A DNA stretch of 54,184 nt from an uncultured Clostridia bacterium (GTDB lineage: Bacteria; Bacillota; Clostridia; Oscillospirales; Ruminococcaceae), in NCBI GenBank assembly GCA_947625915.1, contig CANQPX010000011.1:1-54184 (forward strand), written 5' to 3'. The position numbers and the translations under genes were made by a program. Numbering within the stretch: position 1 is the stretch's first letter; every line of letters starts with the position of its first letter. The notes beneath the pieces are model-generated. The model ran no database searches and had not been told where the DNA came from. It saw only the letters and a list, made by a program, of their open reading frames with translations. Positions 1 to 54,184 of this stretch are shown one piece after another.

Positions 1-144
1 AAACGAACTGCGTTCGTTTCGGCGACAAGGGGTCTAGACGAATGCGAAGCATCCGTTTTTCCCTTAGACCCCACCAACGCGGCTGCGCTGGACCAGCTTT
101 TCAATTTTGCGCTGCGCGCAAAATTGTTAAAATTTTTTCCACAG
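1..144 (+). repeat. Hairpin-rich intergenic element, copy 1 (left-truncated by window)
   Basis: This is the right part of the repeat family described at 2921-3299, in the same orientation. It shows the conserved CCAACGCGGCTGCGCTGG-like stem followed by the CAATTTTGCGC/GCGCAAAATTG hairpin and a degenerate right end (ttttttccacag). Two small inserted palindromes are visible, at 1-19 (AAACGAAC/GTTCGTTT arms) and near 39-60 (ACGAATGC/GCATCCGT arms). It lies downstream of oadB. No open frame is preserved between copies, so I treat it as non-coding. Confidence 0.85.
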
Positions 145-185
145 AATAAGTTTCCCTCGTCATAAAGGCGAGGGGAACTGTTCTG
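142..185 (-). terminator. Hairpin downstream of oadB
   Basis: The arms at 149-159 and 169-179 pair over 11 positions with one G-T, and an outer CAGAA/TTCTG pair extends the stem to 142-185. On the minus strand it follows the oadB stop closely. It lacks a clean U tract, so the terminator role is inferred from position. It abuts the right end of repeat copy 1. Confidence 0.5.
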
Positions 186-2889: not shown

Positions 2890-2919
2890 GATCGGCGGAT
2901 GGAACTCCATCCGCCGATC
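2890..2919. terminator. Terminator hairpin, left copy of a 31-bp direct repeat
   Basis: GATCGGCGGATGG and CCATCCGCCGATC form a perfect 13-bp stem with loop AACT, 19 bp after the mscS stop. The same 31 bp recur at 3300-3330. This copy has no U tract because the repeat element begins immediately after it. Confidence 0.8.
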
Positions 2920-2920
2920 G

Positions 2921-3299
2921 CAGCTTGTTGATAAATATAGTATAGTTTGTTGTCAAGCAACGGATTTTTTTATAAAAACAAATTGCTCTTTATTGCAAAA
3001 CAGCTCACCGGGCTGTTTTGCAAGGCATAAATTATAATAGCCGTTAATGCCAAGGGGAACGCTCTCAAACAAACGAAGTTTGTTTTTGCAGAAGCGTTCC
3101 CCTCTTGCCGCTTACAGCGGAAACGACGCTTGCGTCGTTTTATTCACACCCTTTGCAGAGGCGCCTTCGTAAGGGGAATTTCGCGCTCTGCGGAGCGCGA
3201 CAAGGGCTTCGCCCCTTGACCCCACCAGCGCGGCTGCGCTGGACCAGCTTTTCAATTTTGCGCTGCGCGCAAAATTGTTAAAAACTTTTTCGACAGACT
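2921..3299 (+). repeat. Hairpin-rich intergenic element, copy 2 (complete, flanked by duplicated terminators)
   Basis: This 379-bp copy fills the convergent gap between mscS and the giant repeat protein. In order it has a left end CAGCTTGTTGATAAA, a 12-bp hairpin TTGCAAAACAGC/GCTGTTTTGCAA, a GGGGAACGCTCT stem (interrupted by a small palindrome at 3067-3085), another inserted palindrome at 3121-3140, a GCGCTCtgcgGAGCGC stem, GGGGCTTCGCCCC, CCAGCGC/GCGCTGG, CAATTTTGCGC/GCGCAAAATTG and the right end CTTTTTCGACAGACT. Its ends are inverted copies of each other, and it is bracketed by 31-bp direct repeats of a terminator hairpin. Confidence 0.9.
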
Positions 3300-3337
3300 G
3301 ATCGGCGGATGGAACTCCATCCGCCGATCGTGTTTTT
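3300..3337 (-). terminator. Terminator hairpin, right copy (serves the minus-strand gene)
   Basis: The stem at 3300-3312 and 3317-3329 is identical to 2890-2919. It lies just downstream of the stop codon of the minus-strand giant gene. On the plus strand it is followed by a T run (3333-3338), so it could act in both directions. Confidence 0.8.
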
Positions 3338-17310: not shown

Positions 17311-17330
17311 GAGGTGTGCGCGAAAAGGCG
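17311..17330. terminator. Truncated left copy of a terminator hairpin
   Basis: GAGGTGTGCGCGAAAAGGCG matches the first half of the intact hairpin at 17705-17728 with two differences. It stops in the descending arm, just before repeat copy 3 begins. Confidence 0.6.
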
Positions 17331-17335
17331 TAATT

Positions 17336-17703
17336 CAGTCTGTCGAAAAAGTATTTGTAAAAAATATGGTTGTTTAAAAACGGACTGTTTTATAAAAACA
17401 AATTGCTCTATATTGCCAAACAGCTCACCGGGCTGTTTGGCAAGGCATAAATTATAATAGCCGTTAATGCCAAGGGGAACGCTCTCTCTTGCAGAGCGTT
17501 CCCCTCTTGCCGCTTACAGCGCAGACGACGCTTGCGTCGTTTTATTCACACCCTTTGCAGAGGTGCCTTCGTAAGAGGAATTTCGTCGTCTGCGGACGAC
17601 GACAATGGGCTTCGCCCCTTGACCCCACCAGCGCGGCTGCGCTGGACCAGCTTTTCAATTTTGCGCTGCGCGCAAAATTGTTAAAAACTTTTTCGACAGA
17701 CTG
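17336..17703 (+). repeat. Hairpin-rich intergenic element, copy 3 (complete)
   Basis: The 368-bp copy has left end CAGTCTGTCGAAAAAGTATTT and right end ACTTTTTCGACAGACTG, exact inverted repeats over at least 15 bp. Its first hairpin is TTGCCAAACAGC/GCTGTTTGGCAA, a paired change relative to copy 2. Its variable stem is GTCGTCtgcgGACGAC. A GACGACGC/GCGTCGTT palindrome sits near 17524-17541. Terminator sequence occurs on both sides. Confidence 0.9.
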
Positions 17704-17704
17704 A

Positions 17705-17733
17705 GGTGTGTGTGAAAAGGCGCGCACCTTTTT
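17705..17733 (+). terminator. Terminator of the GH4-like gene, right copy
   Basis: GGTGTGTGTG-AAAA-GGCGCGCACC forms a GU-containing stem followed by TTTTT. It is separated from the gene it should serve by repeat copy 3. Confidence 0.75.
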
Positions 17734-19332: not shown

Positions 19333-19692
19333 GGCGCGGACAAACTAAATATCGAAAAACAAAACCTTGCCCGAAAAGCTGGTCGAGCCAGACAAAACCT
19401 TTGGTTTTGTTTTGCACAGACTCGCGGTTTCCAAAGGCAGAGCCTTTGGTCGCCGTCCGCAGACGGCGAAATTCCCTAATGCCTTTAGGAGCTCCGCAGG
19501 GGGTGAATTGCTGTCGCAGACAGCAAGAGGGGGAAGCCCTGCGATAGAGGGCTTCCCCCTTGAACTAACAAATTTTTTCAAATTTTCTCTTGCCAAACAG
19601 CCCGGTGAGCTGTTTGGCAAGACAGAGCAATTTGTTTTTCTAAAAAATGATACGTTATTTAACAATAAACTATATTATGCTTTATCAAGAAA
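19333..19692 (-). repeat. Hairpin-rich intergenic element, copy 4 (reverse orientation, alternative end)
   Basis: This copy starts with the alternative end GGCGCGGACAAACTAAA and shares the element body in reverse orientation. Its variable stems read GCCGTCcgcaGACGGC, GCTGTC/GACAGC and a GGGGGAAGCCCT/AGGGCTTCCCCC version of the long stem. Extra palindromes are ACAAAACC/GGTTTTGT (19392-19410) and CCAAAGGC/GCCTTTGG (19431-19449). The first-hairpin homologue TTGCCAAACAGC/GCTGTTTGGCAA is at its right part. It separates metY from maf. Confidence 0.88.
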
Positions 19693-19714
19693 TTAAAACG
19701 AAAGGAATATCGTC

Positions 19715-22227: not shown

Positions 22228-22549
22228 CAGTTTGTCGAAAAAGTATTTAAAAAGAATTATTTTTTAGAAAAACAAATTGCTCTGTATTGCCAAACAGCTC
22301 ACCGGGCTGTTTGGCAAGGCATAGATGGTATTAATCGTTAGTGCCAAGGGGAACGCTCTCTCTTGCAGAGCGTTCCCCTCTTGCAACCTTCGGTTGCAAT
22401 TCACCCCTTTGCAGAGGCGCCTTCGTATAGGGAATTTCGCGCTCTGCGGAGCGCGACGGGGGCTTTGCCCCTCGACCCCACCAGCGCGGCTGCGCTGGAT
22501 CAGCTTTTCGGGCAAAGTTTTGTTTTTCGCTATTTAGTTTGTCCGCGCC
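22228..22549 (+). repeat. Hairpin-rich intergenic element, copy 5 (mixed ends)
   Basis: The 322-bp copy begins with the CAGTTTGTCGAAAAAG end and finishes with the alternative end TTTAGTTTGTCCGCGCC. Variable stems are GCAACCttcGGTTGC and GCGCTCtgcgGAGCGC; the first hairpin is the TTGCCAAACAGC version. No terminator copy is seen on its right side. Confidence 0.9.
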
Positions 22550-23796: not shown

Positions 23797-24669
23797 ATGC
23801 AGACAGTCATTTCATCGGAGCAGCTTACGGTCGTGATCGGCAGCTTCGGCGCGGAACTTCATTCGATAAAGGACAGCGGCGGAACGGAGTACCTCTGGCA
23901 AGCCGATCCTTCCGTATGGAAAAGGCACGCGCCCGTGCTTTTCCCGTTCATATGCAATACCGGTTCGGGAGTTTATACTGTGAACGGGGAACAGTTCAGA
24001 CTCGCAAATCACGGATTTGCACGGGATAATGAGTTTGAACTCGTTTCATCGGATAAAAACAAAGCGGGATTTGTTTTGAAGTCCTCCGATGAGACTAAGA
24101 AACTTTATCCGTATGATTTTGAACTTCATATCGGATATTCCGTTTCGGGGAATAAGATCACCGTGAGTTACAAAGTAAAAAACCCGGGCAGTGAAACGAT
24201 AAAATTTTTCATAGGCGGACATCCTGCTTTCAGAGTTCCCGTAAACGGCGGGGAAAGCTTTGAAGACTACTATGTGGAGTATGAGAAGCCCGAGACGATA
24301 GTTCAGGAACTCAAAGACAAAAAAATAACCGTTCTTGACGGCGGAAAAACCATACCTTTGAGCCATGAACTTTTTGCAAATGACGTGTTTATGAAAAACG
24401 AGCCGAATTCCTCATGGGTCGCTCTGGTAAACAAAAACACGGGAAAGAAAGTAAAGCTGCATTTTGACAGCAGCGGCTGCATAGCGGTATGGTCGTCATA
24501 TTTTGAAGACAAAGAAAAGACTGCGAAAGCGGAATTTGTTTGTCTGGAGCCGTGGAGCAGTGTCCCGGTATATCTTTGCGGCAGTGAAGAACTCACCGAA
24601 ATGAAGAATGCGGTCGTTCTTGACGCGGGGAAAGAGTATGGATTTTCCTATGATATAGAGATCGGGTAA
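23797..24669 (+). CDS. Aldose 1-epimerase family protein, LacX-like
   Basis: The 290-residue protein has the galactose-mutarotase fold segments GAELHSIKDSGGTEYLWQAD and NHGFARDNEFE, with FFIGGHPAFRVP carrying a histidine expected near the active site, and LEPWSSVPV near the C-terminus. The LacX-like branch is small, cytoplasmic and of uncertain substrate. ATG 23797 follows GAAAGGGTG; the 16-codon extension is rejected. It lies 25 bp after the GH25 gene and ends at the first of two related hairpins around repeat copy 6. Confidence 0.85.
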   Translation: MQTVISSEQLTVVIGSFGAELHSIKDSGGTEYLWQADPSVWKRHAPVLFPFICNTGSGVYTVNGEQFRLANHGFARDNEFELVSSDKNKAGFVLKSSDETKKLYPYDFELHIGYSVSGNKITVSYKVKNPGSETIKFFIGGHPAFRVPVNGGESFEDYYVEYEKPETIVQELKDKKITVLDGGKTIPLSHELFANDVFMKNEPNSSWVALVNKNTGKKVKLHFDSSGCIAVWSSYFEDKEKTAKAEFVCLEPWSSVPVYLCGSEELTEMKNAVVLDAGKEYGFSYDIEIG

Positions 24670-24682
24670 CGGTATAAAAACT

Positions 24683-24704
24683 AAGCGCGCCGAAAGGCGC
24701 GTTT
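24683..24704 (+). terminator. Terminator hairpin left of repeat copy 6
   Basis: CGCGCC-GAAA-GGCGCG followed by TTT and then directly by the repeat end CAGCTTGTCGAAAAAG. The same stem recurs, inverted, at 25051-25075. Confidence 0.8.
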
Positions 24705-25033
24705 CAGCTTGTCGAAAAAGTTTTTAACAATTTTGCGCGCAGCGCAAAATTGAAAAGCTGATCCAGCGCAGCCGCGCTGGCGGGGTCAAGGGGCGGAGCC
24801 CTTGTCGCCGTCCGCAGACGGCGAAATCCCCCTTACGAAGGCGCCTCTGCAAAGGGGTGAATTGCCGCCCTTTGGGCGGCAAGAGGGGAACGCTCTGCAA
24901 GAGAGAGCGTTCCCCTTGGCATTAACGGTTATTATAATTTAAGCCTTGCAAAACAGCCCGGTGAGCTGTTTTGCAATACAGAGCAATTTGTTTTTATAAA
25001 CAGTTCATTGTCAAACAAATTACTTTTTCGACA
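24705..25033 (-). repeat. Hairpin-rich intergenic element, copy 6 (reverse orientation)
   Basis: The 329-bp copy occupies a convergent gap. Its ends are CAGCTTGTCGAAAAAG and TTACTTTTTCGACA. Variable stems read GCCGTCcgcaGACGGC and GCCGCCCtttGGGCGGC, with AAGGGGAACGCTCT as the long stem. It is flanked by the same GC-rich terminator hairpin on both sides, in inverted orientation. Confidence 0.9.
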
Positions 25034-25050
25034 TTTTTTACAAAAGTCTA

Positions 25051-25077
25051 AAAGCGCGCCTTTCGGCGCGCTTTTAA
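25051..25077 (-). terminator. Terminator hairpin right of repeat copy 6
   Basis: AGCGCGCC-TTTC-GGCGCGCT with A and T tails on both sides, 6 bp after the minus-strand lipoprotein stop. It is the inverse of 24683-24704. Confidence 0.85.
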
Positions 25078-29438: not shown

Positions 29439-29788
29439 TGGTGGAGATGACGGGAATCGAACCCGTGTCCGAAAACCTCTCCGCATGAACTTCTACGAGC
29501 GTAGTTTGTCATTGACATTCCCTTGCCTTCCCGAGGACAAACACCCCGAAAGGCTCAGTAGCCTGCAATACATCACAGAAACGCAGGCACTTTTCTGTGA
29601 CGTTCACCGTTAGTCGGCGCCCTTGTCTAAGCCACGGTACTCAAAGACAGGACGGGCAGCACTTAAGCGGCTGCCAATTCAAAATTATTGTTGTCGTCTA
29701 ATTTTAAAACGTCGCCGTTTAAAGAGAATGGCGCTTCCTCTGCTCGCTTATCATGTTTCATGATCCCCGTCGAAACCTTTACATCCCC
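29439..29788 (-). ncRNA. ssrA: tmRNA
   Basis: On the minus strand the 5' end GGGGATGTAAAGGTTTCGAC and the 3' end with the T arm GGTTCGATTCC and CATCTCCACCA form the tRNA-like domain, 350 nt in all. The tag frame ends DDNNNFELAAA followed by TAA. The stop lies in the loop of a GGCAGC/GCTGCC hairpin as is usual for tmRNA. The resume codon is probably a GGC, giving a tag of about 17 residues. The tag ends in Leu-Ala-Ala-Ala rather than the common Leu-Ala-Ala. CCA is encoded. It rescues stalled ribosomes with SmpB, whose gene is just upstream. Confidence 0.96.
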
Positions 29789-33492: not shown

Positions 33493-33873
33493 CAGTTTGT
33501 CGATAAAGCATAATTATAGTTTTTGACAAACAACGGAATATTTTTTAGAAAAACAAATTGCTCTGTATTGCAAAACAGCTCACCGGGCTGTTTTGCAAGG
33601 CATAAATTATAATATCCGTTAATGCCAAGGGGAACGCTCTCTCTTGCAGAGCGTTCCCCTCTTGCCGCTTACGCGGCAATTCACCCCTTTGCAGAGGCGC
33701 CTTCGTATGGGGGATTTCGCGCTACTGCGAAAAACGAACTGCGTTCGTTTGCGCGACAAGGGGCTTAGACGAATGCGAAGCATTCGTTTTTCCCTCAGAC
33801 CCCACCAGCGCGGCTGCGCTGGACCAGCTTTTCAATTTTGCGCTGCGCGCAAAATTGTTAAAAACTTTTTCAG
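33493..33873 (+). repeat. Hairpin-rich intergenic element, copy 7 (carries nested palindromes)
   Basis: The 381-bp copy fills the convergent gap between clpB and the M23 gene. It has TTGCAAAACAGC/GCTGTTTTGCAA, the long GGGGAACGCTCT stem and GCCGC/GCGGC. Two inserted palindromes lie in later stems: AAACGAAC/GTTCGTTT (33732-33750) and ACGAATGC/GCATTCGT (33769-33787). Its right end runs into the M23 stop codon, so no second terminator copy exists here. Confidence 0.9.
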
Positions 33874-39617: not shown

Positions 39618-39639
39618 TTCTTTGTCAATAATCAAATAC

Positions 39640-39749
39640 CTTATCAAGAGCGGCGGAGGAACTGGTCCTGTGAAGCCCGGCAACCTGATGGCATTTTACC
39701 ATGTGTCAGAAAAGGTGCTAAATCCTGCGGATTTTATCCGAAAGATGAG
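39640..39749 (+). ncRNA. SAM-I riboswitch (S-box) aptamer
   Basis: The aptamer has the S-box landmarks in order: CTTATCAAGAG, GGCGGAGGAACTGG, GTGAAGCCCGGCAACC, a variable P3 hairpin, AAAGGTGCTAAATCC and a closing GATGAG that pairs with CTTATC to form P1. SAM binding stabilises P1 and switches downstream transcription off. It sits in the leader of metK, which makes SAM, giving product feedback. Confidence 0.96.
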
Positions 39750-39770
39750 GATTTTTCAGATGAGATCTTG

Positions 39771-41982: not shown

Positions 41983-41987
41983 GATAA

Positions 41988-42009
41988 GGCGCAGGAGAGT
42001 ATCCTGCGC
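41988..42009 (+). terminator. Terminator hairpin left of repeat copy 8 (direct-repeat copy)
   Basis: GCGCAGGA-gagta-TCCTGCGC directly after the lipid kinase stop; identical over 23 bp to 42337-42359. The repeat end TTCAGTCTGTTGAAAAAG follows the stem at once. Confidence 0.85.
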
Positions 42010-42011
42010 TT

Positions 42012-42335
42012 CAGTCTGTTGAAAAAGTTTTTAACAATTTTGCGCGCAGCGCAAAATTGAAAAGCTGATCCAGCGCAGCCGCGCTGGTGGGGTCAAGGGG
42101 TGAAACCCCTTGTCGCCATCCGCAGATGGCGAAATCCCCTAATGCCTTTAGGAGCTCCGCAGGGGGTGAATTGCTGTCGTAGACAGCAAGAGGGGGAAGC
42201 CCTGCGATAGAGGGCTTCCCCCTTGGCATTAACGGCTATTTTAATTTATGCCTTGCAAAACAGCCCGGTGAGCTGTTTTGCAATACAGAGCAATTTGTTT
42301 TTCTAAGAAAATCCGTTGTTTGACAACAAACTATA
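42012..42335 (-). repeat. Hairpin-rich intergenic element, copy 8 (reverse orientation)
   Basis: This copy lies in a convergent gap. Its variable stems are GCCATCcgcaGATGGC, GCTGTCgtaGACAGC and GGGGGAAGCCCT/AGGGCTTCCCCC. The GCCATC stem differs from the GCCGTC of copy 6 by paired changes. Its right end is truncated relative to copy 2. Direct repeats of a terminator hairpin flank it. Confidence 0.9.
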
Positions 42336-42337
42336 CA

Positions 42338-42366
42338 GGCGCAGGAGAGTATCCTGCGCCTTATTT
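42338..42366 (-). terminator. Terminator hairpin right of repeat copy 8
   Basis: GGCGCAGGA-gagta-TCCTGCGCC, the second copy of the 23-bp direct repeat, 10-15 bp after the DUF4317 gene stop on the minus strand. Confidence 0.85.
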
Positions 42367-54053: not shown

Positions 54054-54184
54054 GGCGCGGACAAACTAAAAAATGAAAAACAAAACTTTGCCCGAAAAGC
54101 TGGTCCAGCGCAGCCGCGCTGGTGGGGTCGAGGGGCGAAGCCCTCGCCGCCGTCCGCAGACGGCGGAAGCCCCTAATGCCTTTA
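54054..54184 (-). repeat. Hairpin-rich intergenic element, copy 9 (right-truncated by window)
   Basis: Begins with the alternative end GGCGCGGACAAACTAAA, then CCAGCGC/GCGCTGG, a GCGAGGGCTTCGCCCCTCG-type stem and GCCGTCcgcaGACGGC, continuing past the window edge. Same orientation and end type as copy 4. Confidence 0.88.

Follow-up and report, generated by a model that had tools for sequence, protein, structure and literature searches.

A MITE of about 380 bp lies between two identical copies of a terminator-like hairpin in the window, as we call the whole 54,184-nucleotide stretch of DNA that was analyzed. The flanks of its copies, the insertion sites of related IS1182-family elements and the comparison of empty with filled sites strongly support the core of the preliminary description, namely that the element inserts at terminator-like hairpins and duplicates them, so that a complete hairpin is left on both sides.

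The focal element and its copies

The hairpin pair at the focal site is the exact 31-bp repeat GATCGGCGGATGGAACTCCATCCGCCGATCG, as had been reported, and no third copy was present among the loci examined in the genome that contains the window (own genome). The left hairpin has a folding energy of -27.2 kcal/mol, and its ends are paired. The element between the hairpins has imperfect terminal inverted repeats (CAGCTTGTTGATAAAT and CAGTCTGTCGAAAAAG), in agreement with the earlier reading of its ends as inverted copies, and the G at position 3300 can be read either as the last base of the element (..GACTG) or as part of the hairpin repeat (Table 1). The comparable arrangements described for other parts of the window were recovered as well: the two hairpins around the 42-kb copy are identical over 23 bp (AGGCGCAGGAGAGTATCCTGCGC), the arrangement at 17 kb is partial, with a decayed left and an intact right hairpin, and an inverted arrangement, in which the loops of the left and right hairpins are inverted, surrounds the copy at 24705-25038. 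The window also carries a tmRNA gene on the minus strand (29439-29788; Rfam RF00023, 179.9 bits) and a SAM riboswitch on the plus strand (39638-39751; RF00162, 81 bits).

Table 1. MITE copies and hairpins located in the window
Feature	Position	Strand	Basis or remark
Partial MITE	1..145	+	window edge
Terminator-like hairpin, left copy of 31-bp target duplication	2890..2920		exact repeat of 3300-3330
MITE copy, about 380 bp, without transposase frame	2921..3300	+	own-genome matches, RNA fold, frames
Left terminal inverted repeat CAGCTTGTTGATAAAT	2921..2936	+	1 mismatch to CAGYYTGTHGAWAAAG
Right terminal inverted repeat, CAGTCTGTCGAAAAAG on minus strand	3285..3300	-	0 mismatches
Terminator-like hairpin, right copy of 31-bp target duplication	3300..3330		exact repeat
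Decayed left hairpin copy, 17-kb MITE	17311..17330
MITE copy	17336..17703	+	0 mismatches in both terminal repeats
Intact right hairpin copy, 17-kb MITE	17705..17728
Partial MITE	19553..19695	-
MITE copy, diverged right end	22228..22509	+	GCGGCGGTATTTTTATACCGCCGC hairpin as left flank
MITE copy, GCGCGCC hairpins on both sides, loops inverted	24705..25038	-	25038 end degenerate (3 mismatches)
MITE copy	33493..33871	+	hairpin AACGGGGCTTTTTAAGCCCCGTT on left side only
Hairpin, one of 23-bp identical pair, 42-kb site	41987..42009		single in four congeners
MITE copy, 42-kb site	42012..42336	-	42336 end without recognisable terminal repeat
Hairpin, second copy, 42-kb site	42337..42359
Partial MITE	54094..54184	-	window edge

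The repeat is a dispersed, multi-copy, non-coding MITE. It is short, has terminal inverted repeats and contains no transposase frame; its RNA fold beat 100/100 shuffles (z -10), and an Rfam search at the element matched no family. A DNA search of the own genome (2.1 Mb in 73 contigs, 89% complete) gave 47 matches. Seven of these were short and either secondary or self-palindromic, and the others mark at least 40 places, counting the focal site; this number of places is a lower bound, with 40 of 181 first-look candidates scored. The end pattern CAGYYTGTCGAWAAAG, with at most one mismatch, had 83 matches in the same genome, compared with 4 for the reversed control. Collection of copies from relatives, which had been proposed as a check, gave DNA matches in 12 of the 13 genomes from the same genus (own genome included) and in 0 of 8 genomes from other families. 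Many of the matches in relatives are confined to some 75-100 bp in the right part of the element, and therefore point to kinship of this module, not necessarily of the whole MITE. The interior of the element (2921-3300 and other copies) looks assembled from exchangeable hairpin modules, with alternative stems and extra hairpins within loops, and the right ends are of two types, AATTTTGCGC.. and GGGCAAAGTTTTG..TTTGTCCGCGCC..

Direct repeats flanking the MITE copies

MITE copies were delimited by their ends alone, and 46 candidate pairs were reduced to 37 by keeping a single pair for each site and only pairs with two element motifs, which left out copies with a degenerate end (e.g., L025, L046 and the 42-kb copy). 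Anchored flanking direct repeats with a score of at least 8 were found at 17 of the 37 MITEs, compared with 3 of 444 (0.7%) pairings of flanks from different copies. At a score of at least 15 the corresponding numbers were 8/37 and 0/444, the null maximum being 9, and the focal hairpin pair scored 31. Long duplications, mostly of whole hairpins, flank nine MITE copies (the focal one at 2890, L007, L015, L029, L048, L051, L059, L079 and, more weakly, L073). Eight of the 37 MITEs (L001, L011, L016, L019, L033, L054, L058 and L078) are flanked by AT-rich duplications of 8-14 bp without a strong hairpin, which are a second target mode of the MITE. The remaining 20 of the 37 have diverged, one-sided or absent repeats, none above the threshold. 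Among the MITE copies of relatives that have both ends, the fetched loci gave three candidate pairs, none of them convincing. One MITE in the own genome (L068) has ends that adjoin two different hairpins.

Where the two hairpins of a copy have diverged (eight pairs; L045 was dropped for unequal length), we counted five compensatory changes, two single changes that keep the pair, four that break it and eight in loops. Since three of the five compensatory changes come from L069, we make no claim of selection.

An IS1182-family transposase with MITE-like ends

The IS1182 family transposase model NF033551 had matches in 6 of 21 genomes (2 above cut-off). An IS1182-type copy in a congener (L085, genome G012) carries the MITE end pattern at its two ends, with 1 and 0 mismatches, and a 466-aa transposase frame lies inside these ends. 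The protein (P0001) scored 392 bits against the NF033551 cut-off of 270, the proteins of L098, L106 and L111 being likewise above it, and contains the domains DDE_Tnp_1_6 (PF13751), DUF772 (PF05598) and DDE_Tnp_1 (PF01609). By the family model, the DDE and DUF772 domains and the hairpin target, L085 is a member of the IS1182 family. Its left end adjoins a terminator-like hairpin, and its contig ends one base past the right end; an IS1182 copy in another genome (L087, G023) adjoins a hairpin on the right. A transposase gene with matching terminal repeats, which the preliminary description had suggested looking for, is thus present in a congener, but the NF033551 search of the own genome, at 89% completeness, found no IS1182 transposase. 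The IS1634 family, which makes target duplications of variable length, was ruled out as the mobiliser because its model NF033559 matched 0 of 21 genomes.

Hairpin duplication at autonomous IS1182 copies

A scan of a collection of species genomes with the L085 transposase yielded 42 loci, which were examined together with L087 (43 in total). Both ends and enough flanking DNA were available at 19 of the 43, comprising 13 elements of 1.47-1.77 kb and 6 that were shorter and internally deleted. Direct repeats with a score of at least 10 flanked 11 of these 19 copies, compared with 0 of 342 mismatched flank pairings, and all 11 were whole hairpins of 20-38 bp (9 on full-length elements, and those of L124 and L126 on shortened ones). 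Eight of the 19 had no long duplication. L102 has an 8-bp duplication only, the ends of L121, L129, L130 and L132 adjoin two different hairpins, and L105, L112 and L134 have a hairpin on one side only. A transposase search of the 13 genomes behind the loci added few usable copies.

Among plasmid and phage sequences, 1827 plasmid and 15 phage records matched, and 12 copies were chosen among the 55 matches listed. An exact whole-hairpin duplication was found at 9 of the 12 (L211, L212, L214-L217 and L219-L221), of which L214-L217 are close relatives of one another; L213 has two different hairpins, L210 is without the right flank and L218 without the right end. The copy on the Thermocaproicibacter plasmid pTVN (L210, 1-352) adjoins a gene annotated as type III-A cas10/csm1. 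Eight further plasmid copies, mostly more distant, were fetched and seven examined: L230 from Rhizobium has a 20-bp hairpin duplication, L229 has two different hairpins at its ends, the distant IS1182 members L231, L232 and L235 showed no hairpin duplication, and the duplications of L233 and L234 look short by eye. For the six IS1182 copies named above that lie between two unlike hairpins, and for the MITE L068, recombination between copies, or the joining of each end to another hairpin, would explain the arrangement.

ISPse1, a captured Paracoccus member of the family, is tabled with a 4-bp duplication (PMC3281130) and, together with the distant members that have no hairpin duplication, indicates that hairpin duplication is not family-wide in IS1182. 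A tree of 30 proteins has hairpin-duplicating elements throughout the CAG-end clade (Clostridia, Bacilli, Cetobacterium and Streptococcus phages) and also in the Rhizobium row. The hairpin-duplicating label needs six changes on this tree, and the three rows that lack duplication group together in a single supported clade; the distant rows, whose placement is unsure, sit on long branches.

Borders and terminator character of the duplicated hairpins

The long duplications of 29 copies (8 MITE and 21 IS) were pooled; they are 17-47 bp long, and in 27 of the 29 the piece is closed by base pairs that lie no more than four bases from each of its ends. When equally long windows were shifted, 0/29 closed at 5 bases in either direction, 4 and 3 of 29 at 8 bases, and 8 and 2 of 29 at 11 bases. 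This test speaks to the borders of the duplications and not to their frequency, because the set was picked for long duplication. The offset of the duplication from the hairpin was zero in 21 of the 29 copies. L073 combines a long duplication with a weak hairpin (-2.9 kcal/mol).

In 27 copies (L073 and L079 omitted), the mean number of T in the 8 bases outside the hairpins was 5.1 (plus side) and 4.9 (minus side), compared with 2.26 in background windows. At least 5 T in 8 nt were present on at least one outer side in 24 of the 27 and on both sides in 11, and the inner faces, which are element sequence, had 2.3 and 2.5 T in 8 bases. Given these T-rich outer flanks, the target hairpins resemble intrinsic terminators, in many cases bidirectional ones. 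What is duplicated is the stem-loop, with no more of the T-tract than is paired, so that the gene-proximal hairpin copy borders on the CAG... end of the element, not a T-rich sequence, and the unpaired T-tract lies outside the far copy. The gene-proximal copy would in this way lose its unpaired T-tract to the element, which weakens the earlier suggestion that both convergent genes keep a terminator; judged from the sequence, that suggestion is doubtful. Placement between convergent genes applied to part of the sites: by the longest open frame, a method too crude for this purpose, the genes at the 37 sites were oriented toward/toward at 11, away/away at 11 and in the two mixed orders at 10 and 5.

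Empty and filled sites

Four insertions in Enterococcus plasmids could be compared with related plasmids that do not carry the element. The expectation that an empty site has one hairpin and a filled site two was borne out at 4/4 sites, where filled minus empty equalled the IS plus exactly one hairpin: 1518+25 (L217), 1517+27 (L215), 1517+47 (L214) and 1516+22 (L216). The six empty records (L222, L223, L224, L225, L227 and L228) have one hairpin each; the loop is inverted in L222, L225 has two changes, and L227 covers the right flank in part. For the phage site L220, no two-sided empty record was present among 20 of 21 matches listed.

Across species, empty sites could be read via joined flanks only for the 2.9-kb and 42-kb sites of the window. 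In all four congeners searched for the 42-kb site (G005, G025, G026 and G028), one hairpin of the GGCGCAGG..CCTGCGCC type follows the left gene and the element is absent there, as expected of an empty site; the right-hand neighbour is close by only in G026, and is further off or on another contig in G005, G025 and G028. At the focal site, the gap in G026, the one intact ortholog, is also empty, but it holds two unlike terminators, neither recognisably the 31-mer, and in G005 an element lies at a contig edge adjoining a hairpin. The focal site is thus without a clean empty ortholog, and its insertion is read by analogy.

Hairpin loops were found inverted between otherwise alike copies or alleles (L222 vs L217, L012, and positions 24660-25075 of the window). 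Since such an inversion is also present at an empty site, hairpin loops can flip without transposition.

Proposed mechanism and alternatives

We consider it likely that the MITE is moved in trans by an IS1182 DDE transposase of the clade with CAGNYTGT ends, which would choose stem-loops and generate hairpin-length target duplications via joins at the 5′ feet; the larger jumping genes (IS1182) would probably move the small MITE. The transposase would select stem-loop DNA, often an intrinsic terminator, with the hairpin extruded as a cruciform. The two 3′ ends of the element would be joined to the two 5′ feet of the hairpin, one per strand, and gap repair would copy the entire stem-loop to both sides. 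Joining at the 5′ feet followed by gap repair would make the target duplication as long as the hairpin (17-47 bp), and at AT-rich sites without a hairpin the MITE would leave duplications of 8-14 bp. Mobilisation in trans in the own genome, extrusion of the cruciform and cuts at the 5′ feet are the steps that we infer. With somewhat less confidence, we favor the wider reading that a clade of DDE transposases without a fixed stagger gauges its target by DNA secondary structure and cuts at the feet of the extruded hairpin, whereby the terminator stem-loop is doubled, and that such an IS1182 element spawned the high-copy MITE in a Ruminococcus-like lineage.

The main rival, which we regard as unlikely, is that the inverted repeat is recognized as duplex DNA, with one transposase monomer on each half-site and cleavage outside it, and that no hairpin is extruded. 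The end product would be the same, with the whole inverted repeat duplicated; the slow extrusion of short hairpins in duplex DNA counts for this reading, as does the weak hairpin of L073. However, the hairpins differ in sequence and range from 17 to 47 bp, which would be hard to reconcile with a dimer that has specific half-sites at a fixed spacing. It is very improbable that the element inserted beside a hairpin with an ordinary short duplication and that the hairpin was copied later by replication slippage or gene conversion: hairpins do rearrange, as the loop-inverted alleles illustrate (L222 vs L217; L012; 24705), but the duplications are of exact hairpin length at both ends in several genera, their offset is mostly zero, and each of the four plasmid comparisons gave the IS and exactly one hairpin.

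Two further explanations can be given hardly any credence. Hairpins that are part of the mobile element and travel along with it would account for their adjoining the element ends at many copies, yet different sites have different hairpins, and a hairpin is present in the empty sites. A stem-loop replacement of the IS1272 type, with the visible hairpins as residual arms, has in its favor the same transposase family and the targeting of stem-loops and terminators described for IS1272 in the available parts of PMC4923244 and PMC5678879; against this barely conceivable course of events, whole hairpins are found on both sides, and the flanks plus one hairpin match the empty sites. Replacement may apply to distant members such as L232 and L235.

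Relation to known systems and significance

IS1272 and TnSha1, IS1182-family elements of staphylococci, have terminal repeats of about 16 bp and target stem-loops that show little conservation of primary sequence and include several terminators (PMC4923244; PMC5678879). In the available parts of these articles, IS1272 replaces the hairpin without target duplication (PMC5678879), and in TnSha1 insertions the stem-loop is replaced with partial deletion, also without duplication (PMC4923244). The elements described here have the transposase family and the stem-loop targets in common with IS1272 and TnSha1, but they keep and duplicate the hairpin, whereas the latter delete or replace it; the IS1272-type features, hairpin loss and no duplication, were not seen at the empty and filled sites. 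Palindrome targeting by some IS1182 members is known through a review cited in PMC5678879 and PMC4923244. The structure-dependent transposition model in PMC5678879 (Discussion, Fig 13) includes a pathway b, in which 3′ ends joined at the 5′ feet may duplicate the whole stem-loop, and which that part of the article draws without an example. The product is the same as that of the hairpin-duplicating insertions reported here, for which there are many examples as well as empty sites. The preliminary description had regarded duplication of a complete terminator as new. Among the matches listed in the open-access literature, no article was found that describes whole-terminator duplication, hairpin-length target duplications together with empty sites, or a MITE that makes them, but the pathway had already been drawn as a possibility (PMC5678879).

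The Enterococcus elements L214-L217, which duplicate hairpins of 22-47 bp, are ISEfa7-like: the protein of L214 shares 76% identity with records that carry an ISEfa7 family annotation. The ISEfa7 copy L218 is itself without a right end. For the IS1182 family, ISfinder reportedly gives repeats that are long or vary in length, and part of the present finding may be tabulated there. Insertion at palindromes is common to our elements and the REP-targeting insertion sequences, among which IS1397 reportedly is REP-specific and makes short duplications. The CRISPR integrase Cas1-Cas2 joins both ends of a repeat that is often palindromic and duplicates the whole repeat; this duplication is alike, but the enzyme is unrelated to the DDE protein of IS1182.

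Most DDE transposases generate target duplications of a length that is nearly constant for a given enzyme. A duplication length that tracks hairpin length makes structure-dependent target choice directly testable, and the insertions described here supply examples for a pathway that, in the available part of PMC5678879, has so far only been drawn for the IS1182 family. A target mode that spares the terminator stem-loop bears on the tolerance of such elements and on the evolution of gene 3′ ends.
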